Positions 61,179 through 61,626 of a stretch of 64,000 nt of DNA are shown piece by piece. Numbering within the stretch: the first letter of the stretch is position 1; every line of letters begins with the position of its first letter. The notes under the pieces are model-generated. The model did not search any database and had not been told where the DNA came from. It saw only the letters and a program-made list of their open reading frames with translations. The position numbers and the translations under genes were made by a program. The stretch lies in assembly GCF_008369445.1 (NCBI RefSeq), contig NZ_VTWH01000002.1, positions 372,001-436,000 of the forward strand. Direction: 5' to 3'. The DNA comes from Aureimonas fodinaquatilis. Lineage in GTDB: Bacteria; Pseudomonadota; Alphaproteobacteria; Rhizobiales; Rhizobiaceae.

Positions 61179-61626
61179 CAATTCCAGCAAAAGTGTGAAA
61201 CGGTTTTGCGTTCGGAATTGCGGCAGGTGAAAAAACAATTCCAGCAAAAGTGTGAAGCGATTTTGCGTCCGGAATTGCGGCAGGCGAAGAATACAATTCC
61301 AGCAAAAGTGCGAAGCGGTTTTGCGTCCGGAACTGCGGCAGGCGAAGAATACAATTCCAGCAAAAGTGCGAAGCGGTTTTGCGTCCGGAATTGCGGCAGG
61401 CGAAGAATACAATTCCAGCAAAAGTGCGAAGCGGTTTTGCGTCCGGAATCGTCAGGCGAAGAATACAATTCCAGCAAAAGTGCGAAGCGGTTTTGCGTCC
61501 AGAATCGTCAGGCGAAGAATACAATTCCAGCAAAAGTGCGAAGCGGTTTTGCGTCCGGAATTGCGGCAGGCGAAGAATACAATTCCAGCAGAAGTGCAAA
61601 ACAGTTTTGCGTCCGGAAACGTCAGG
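61179..61626. repeat. Tandem array of eight 56-58 bp palindromic units
   Basis: Units begin (at CAATTCCAGC) at 61179, 61236, 61294, 61352, 61410, 61466, 61522 and 61580. Each has AATTCC...GGAATT outer arms and GCAAAA...TTTTGC inner arms, so it can fold in RNA of either strand. Two unit types exist: most end GGAATTGCGGCAGGCGAAG, while units 5, 6 and 8 end with a GTCAGGCG form. The final unit runs into the kdsA stop codon. The palindrome resembles dispersed rhizobial intergenic elements (RIME/RPE type), but an eight-copy tandem array is unusual. No spacers vary, so it is not CRISPR. Confidence 0.93.

Follow-up and report, generated by a model that had tools for sequence, protein, structure and literature searches.

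In Aureimonas fodinaquatilis, the spacer between the genes that we take, from their sequence, to be kdsA and eno measures 483 nt and is occupied by a palindrome repeated head to tail. The locus raises the question of whether such an array acts as a switch for the glycolytic gene beside it or is the local product of a repeat that also multiplies at unrelated genes. Both genes, together with the ORF upstream of kdsA, which is presumably pyrG-like, lie on the minus strand of the 64,000-nt stretch analyzed here (the window). kdsA (61622..62461) encodes 279 aa with 76-84% identity to the matches in 20 genus-mates, and eno (59864..61138, GTG start) encodes 424 aa, of which the first 135 are 89-93% identical to relatives at the 13 genus loci examined.

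Repeat finding in the window resolved eight head-to-tail units between 61175 and 61632, with spacings of 57, 58, 58, 58, 56, 56 and 58 nt. Tandem Repeats Finder returned three rows for what is one and the same array (61179-61618, period 58, 7.7 copies, 94% matches), the only tandem array in the window. Furthermore, the 15-mer ATTCCAGCAAAAGTG, allowing up to two mismatches, occurs eight times in the window and always within the array (0.21 expected; none of 100 shuffles reached eight). These three approaches confirmed the original prediction of an eight-copy tandem palindrome array filling the gap. Within a unit, an imperfect palindrome takes up about 46 nt and a short linker the rest. Read on the plus strand, unit 1 (61176..61226, the 5' unit on the eno side) is an intact palindrome with the canonical AAGC left end; it scored 66.4 bits in nhmmer and is the top covariance-model match of the whole genome (75.8 bits). 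It is followed by nhmmer matches for unit 2 (61233..61283), unit 3 (61291..61341), unit 4 (61349..61399), unit 5 (61407..61454, GAATCGTCAGG), unit 6 (61463..61510) and unit 7 (61519..61569), of which units 5 and 6 are 2 nt shorter. Unit 8 (61577..61625), the last one on the kdsA side, is eroded: the nhmmer match stops at 61618, and the covariance-model match (39.8 bits) overlaps the kdsA stop codon. The units had been described as near-exact repeats, which holds for seven of them (50-61 bits) and fails for the last (40 bits). The array runs from the kdsA stop codon (61622-61624, minus strand), which its eroded end abuts, to a point 24 nt before the likely Shine-Dalgarno sequence of eno (GGAGGA, 61146..61151, minus strand), with its intact end toward eno.

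Within 61440-61630, CGTCAGGCG follows units 5, 6 and 8, and at unit 8 it covers the kdsA stop together with the last sense codon. A similar linker is present in another array of the same genome (C1:1108337), so the kdsA stop may lie within element-derived sequence. The protein ends in the 20 genus-mates speak neither clearly for nor clearly against a lengthening of kdsA by the array: KdsA of A. fodinaquatilis terminates in ...KSWDA, 18 of the relatives end directly after the K plus two residues, and two (L126, L132) run on.

The stretch 61342-61411 around unit 4 is identical over all 70 bases to 61512-61581 around unit 7. Such identity, in an array longer than a short read, would allow the assembly to have misjudged the true copy number at kdsA-eno. 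We consider this unlikely, since six of the eight units have a sequence of their own, the array sits in a 1.26 Mb contig, and many assemblies made independently contain arrays of this kind, some of these assemblies being labeled complete (L076, L080, L087).

An alignment of 76 near-complete copies gave the consensus AAGC-AATTCC-A-GCAAAA-GTG-C-GNA-G-CGG-TTTTGC-GTCC-GGAATT-GC. It was built from single copies and from the first units of arrays, with 12 contributed by the own genome and 64 by other genomes. The copies represent 76 of 78 eligible ones, two overlapping matches on opposite strands having been left out, and the choice of near-complete copies favors good pairing. The outer stem, the inner stem and the apex covary, with 98.3% of the cells paired compared to 94.3% in shuffles. 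Eight pairs changed on both sides, in 38 cells, and none of 500 shuffles reached any of five measures; when the partners were slid by one to three columns, only 33-47% of the cells were paired. RNAalifold alone predicted 13 pairs for the alignment. This covariation supports the earlier proposal that the units can form successive stem-loops. The nested inverted arms proposed for each unit stood only insofar as the unit is an imperfect palindrome: the inverted-repeat finder reported no pair for the units because the stem has an internal loop. The apical pair is CG in 39 copies, UG in 13, GC in 15, UA in seven and something else in two, and the apical loop reads GNA in 134 of 191 distinct units. 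We take GCGNAGC to be an extraordinarily stable DNA mini-hairpin. Folded as single-stranded DNA, units 1 and 4 exceed their shuffles in stability (z -2.3 to -3.6 over four folds); as RNA, neither a 70-nt stretch containing one unit (z -1.05 and -0.89) nor the 511-nt leader (z -0.96) folded more stably than shuffles.

A search for the unit in the own genome and in relatives, set beforehand as a check on the original prediction, revealed that the element is far from private to this locus. In the own genome (3.93 Mb, eight contigs), a 70-base query containing one unit found 39 matches and the covariance model 47; grouping gave nine arrays of 8, 6, 5, 5, 4, 2, 2, 2 and 2 units. The 20 genus-mates have at least 0 to 12 model matches each (eight with none), which are minimum counts, as scoring covered 150 candidates in each genome; no two tabulated matches in these genomes lie within 100 nt of each other. 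In the species-level genome collection, tandem pairs of the exact 15-mer are present in 60 listed stretches. By their titles, 57 of them belong to what we take to be Hyphomicrobiales, two to a Sphingobium bin and one to an unplaced proteobacterial bin. Among 199 genomes of the family, 11 have exact tandem pairs, the own genome the most (six pairs). The 60 stretches carry arrays of up to five units, which makes the eight at kdsA-eno the longest seen; as the scan demands two intact left halves, the left halves in these stretches are partly imposed, and the comparison of 3' halves is not. Three other genomes have 35, 61 and 42 element matches at E 1e-8, and in the Ensifer sesbaniae genome among them 23 of the 61 matches fall into nine tandem groups. 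With eight further arrays in its own genome and many in other genera, tandem amplification recurs at other genes and is no oddity of a glycolytic gene, contrary to what had been thought.

Some of these arrays show features of their own. One two-unit array (L014:1448-1550; C6, about 201204-201309) lies just upstream of a start that we take, from the N-terminus MNIHEYQAKQVL, to be that of a sucC-like gene, another junction at central metabolism. In a six-unit array (L020:1498-1818; C2:60575), every right arm reads GTTGAACA(A/C)TGC or a close variant and mismatches the left arm, a derived change common to the array. A tandem pair is common to two Mesorhizobium species (L066:7144-7215 and L100:5222-5293), at a gene pair that, judged by the flanks, looks the same. 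The two units agree in their apical sequence within either species, which points to concerted change. The ORFs next to L066 look like an IclR-type regulator and an oxidoreductase, names that we assume. A kdsA-eno array in Mesorhizobium, considered for a C-terminal resemblance at these two loci, was ruled out, as neither kdsA nor eno matches there.

In the broad sense of many copies, a conserved stem-loop and a position mostly outside genes (four of 62 arrays of other genomes lie inside a called gene), the element is a REP-like extragenic palindrome. Among described elements, the untagged palindromes found in Brucella and rhizobia come closest; Bru-RS and RIME were compared with it by description. 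Bru-RS are likewise intergenic palindromic repeats of related bacteria; for B. melitensis, a table lists the values 118 and 222(69), which we read as length and member number (PMC2267715), and a passage in another source calls them REP-like without a conserved terminal motif (PMC3733652). At one locus, copies of Bru-RS1 and Bru-RS2 measure 103 and 106 bp and are separated by 155 bp (PMC10800456). In contrast to such palindromes of 103-106 bp, the array units consist of about 46 bp plus linker and repeat every 56-58 bp. Longer two-stem copies do exist elsewhere in the own genome. One of them, a single copy at L016:1488-1629 (C1:1018289), aligns along the whole Rfam model of the Brucella sRNA BASRCI27 (RF02600, two stems) with 34.1 bits, whereas the array, which has the first stem only, aligns with that stem at 20.0 bits. 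Since both scores fall below the gathering cut-off of 59.8 bits, the unit was not filed as a BASRCI27 member; its alignment with an internal stem of a second Brucella sRNA, BASRCI408 (RF02599), reached 19.9 bits against a cut-off of 398. The two-stem copy is possibly a parent form of the one-stem arrays. According to a table in a review, transcripts of BASRCI27 and BASRCI408 were confirmed by PCR-based assays in B. abortus (PMC9751625). Structured intergenic repeats are also described for Sinorhizobium, where one source mentions dozens of copies of RIME, Sm and A-B-C elements with unknown function (PMC2573895); the likeness is again one of description. The palindrome is of the rhizobial type assigned to it and resembles Bru-RS and BASRCI27, short of formal membership.

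For REP and BIME elements with RAYT transposases, PMC3733652 describes large clusters, with singletons or dimers reiterated in tandem together with flanking DNA, and GTAG REP ends that often supply the stop codon of flanking ORFs; in E. coli, according to PMC12306157, ribosomes stall at REPs that lie no more than 15 nt from a stop codon. The element shares with them the short extragenic palindrome, the tandem reiteration and an association with stop codons. It differs in being polar, in its single orientation and in having no conserved tag: CGTC is found at the right end in nine of 76 aligned copies and GTAG at either end in none. Other classes did not fit. At gathering level, the sole Rfam match in the whole window is a tRNA at 29702-29774 (74.9 bits), which ruled out a known riboswitch or sRNA at the array, and a CRISPR was dismissed because the linkers are repeated inside arrays, with no unique spacers. 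Among the matches listed from the open-licence literature, none describes polar tandem arrays of this element, and Bru-RS1 together with tandem returned no match in that literature.

Periods range from 52 to 64 nt between arrays and are constant within 2 nt in 26 of 29 arrays with at least three units (exceptions: L069, L104 and L116; the scan itself allows 43-73), and linkers are array-specific. In the own genome, unit identity is 0.921 within arrays and 0.819 between them, a difference that none of 2000 permutations reached; such homogeneity is weak or absent in three other genomes, where 60, 87 and 653 of 2000 shuffles reached the observed value. Copy number differs between species at one orthologous Ensifer locus (L154-L169). 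Among its 16 species, nine have no element; the gap measures 4-5 nt in seven of these and 25 nt in the other two. The seven occupied sites hold one unit (one species), one unit plus a decayed one (two species), two (one species), three (two species) or four (one species), with linkers that differ by species. All seven tight empty sites have TAG as the upstream stop codon, the seven occupied sites have TAA, and the element starts directly after the TA of that stop.

Based on these data, we favor, with moderate confidence, the following origin of the kdsA-eno array. A single mobile palindrome, REP-like and similar in kind to those of Brucella and rhizobia, would have entered a short kdsA-eno spacer in the source lineage and then multiplied locally, head to tail, and the resulting array would partly dampen read-through into eno. 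The likeliest amplifier would be replication slippage aided by the hairpin: a freshly copied palindrome folds, and the nascent end could slip back to the start of the palindrome and recopy it with the short linker. Slippage of this kind would account for the head-to-tail order, for a unit length of one palindrome plus a few linker bases, for the array-specific linkers and for the variable number of units. The short spacers of most genus-mates fit an insertion into a compact gene junction; a genome with a single unit or a shorter array at kdsA-eno was not found among those searched. The kdsA-eno array is plausibly a variable-number locus.

The erosion of unit 8 is part of a general polarity. 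Scored on the core only, the first unit is better than the last in 51 of 73 arrays, worse in six and equal in 16. In the 29 arrays of at least three units, the penultimate unit beats the last in 21, loses in four and ties in four, and the first scores above the second in 12, below it in three and level with it in 14. The erosion affects the 3' half, where the mean number of matches out of 19 drops from 18.1 in first units and 17.3 in inner units to 15.1 in last units. With the whole profile, the first unit even wins 62 to 10 (one tie), but we prefer the core-only figures because first units gain from the AAGC start under that score. As orthologous arrays were counted separately, the 73 arrays are not independent and p-values overstate the effect. 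Symmetric slippage alone does not predict this polarity. It would need either the erosion of the oldest, flank-bearing unit, in which case the last unit would be the oldest, or a process directed toward the 5' side.

The gene calls used here come from codon usage, so that stops are reliable and starts are not; L100, for example, was labeled co-directional though its flanks resemble those of the convergent L066. After exclusion of eight of the 62 arrays of other genomes (four at locus edges, four inside a called gene) and with L032 left out of the array counts as a duplicate of L091, 54 usable arrays remained: 29 between convergent genes, 24 between co-directional genes and one between divergent genes. 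For comparison, the called spacers of 60 nt or more in these loci, including those with arrays, number 59 convergent, 148 co-directional and 62 divergent. In Fisher tests, the shortage of arrays between divergent genes had p 3e-6 and their excess between convergent genes p 5e-9; the background, all spacers minus arrays, is an approximation, and the separate counting of orthologous arrays again overstates the p-values. In these genomes, the 5' edge of 35 of 44 arrays lies within -2 to +4 nt of the upstream stop codon, a range chosen after a first look at the edge positions, compared to two of 38 3' edges and four of 13 single elements (a small sample, mostly from the 30 best-match loci of three genomes).

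The anchoring of array edges at stop codons, the Ensifer element that begins right after the TA of a stop at a site left empty in nine relatives, the polarity and the prevalent GNA loop could all be explained by a putative nuclease or transposase with the hairpin as its target, which would extend arrays at the 5' side close to stop codons. We regard such an enzyme-driven mobile array as rather unlikely. The REP-type transposase Y1_Tnp (PF01797) has no match at E 0.001 in any of 21 genus genomes, the own one included, while five of 14 control genomes do match, which ruled out a RAYT-driven REP. Moreover, the array-specific linkers make units appear to come from their neighbor and not from elsewhere, and at eno the stop-codon rule of the other genomes fails, as 32 nt separate the called 5' edge from eno and no stop codon lies there. 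The own genome differs from the others in a further respect: five of its nine arrays, the kdsA-eno one included, are antisense to co-directional genes, so that their U-rich side faces incoming transcription.

This leads back to the effect on eno. On the strand read from kdsA to eno, a U-rich nonamer follows the hairpin of each later unit, TTTTTTCAC at unit 2 and TATTCTTCG at units 3-8, so that all seven later units have at least five T in the 9 nt after the minus-strand hairpin. Across all arrays, 78 of 129 later units share this feature, compared to none of 202 units on the plus strand. A strict scan for consensus terminators in 61000-61800 found none (shuffle mean 1.2), yet the imperfect hairpin with its U-rich flank is present at seven of seven later units. 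Seven hairpins toward eno, each followed by a U-rich stretch, make a partial attenuation of read-through into eno plausible from the sequence; the array may plausibly also terminate kdsA reading, as originally suggested. A consensus scan of the same interval, which covers promoters of the sigma-70 type only and has other types outside its reach, detected no promoter. Since the array ends 24 nt short of the likely ribosome-binding site, transcription of eno presumably passes through the array or starts at a promoter within it or within kdsA.

If the array were a selected regulator, it would work as an attenuator or a processing region, and the number of copies would tune the ratio of kdsA to eno expression. 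Its position between two co-directional genes, the hairpins with U-rich tails on the coding strand at all seven later units, and the antisense orientation of five of the nine own arrays would agree with this idea. We nevertheless judge it unlikely. Arrays of the same kind occur at unrelated genes, and the terminator scan was negative. The wobble pairs of the stem show no plus-strand preference (33 G-T, 49 A-C, apical pair excluded), which argues against selection on one RNA strand, and only at the apical pair does T-G exceed C-A, by 42 to 9. A function of the RNA from one strand was discarded on this test; the structure is conserved, and nothing marks one RNA strand as the selected form. Finally, 16 of 20 genus-mates have only 54-89 nt between kdsA and eno, a spacer too short for an array (the other four have no eno in the flank examined), so the eno-specific control that had been proposed is unsupported. 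We think that the array was not selected as an eno switch, and return to local multiplication of an inserted palindrome, probably by hairpin-driven slippage, as its origin.

Beyond this locus, the polarity and the stop-codon anchoring may reflect a directional, hairpin-templated amplification across the Hyphomicrobiales, in which copies anchored at stop codons would preferentially be extended into arrays, with new units on the 5' side, old ones eroding on the far side and a GNA-capped single-stranded DNA hairpin (GCGNAGC) as the active form; we offer this as a speculative proposal that is unlikely to hold. If it were true, the 3' ends of genes would become adjustable stacks of hairpins. The finding points to a general process that can be tested: one short palindrome gives rise to polar tandem arrays again and again, at loci unrelated to one another, and in many species these arrays are anchored at stop codons. 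The natural empty, one-, two-, three- and four-unit alleles of Ensifer provide a ready system for studying hairpin-driven DNA amplification as well as stacked hairpins at transcript ends.
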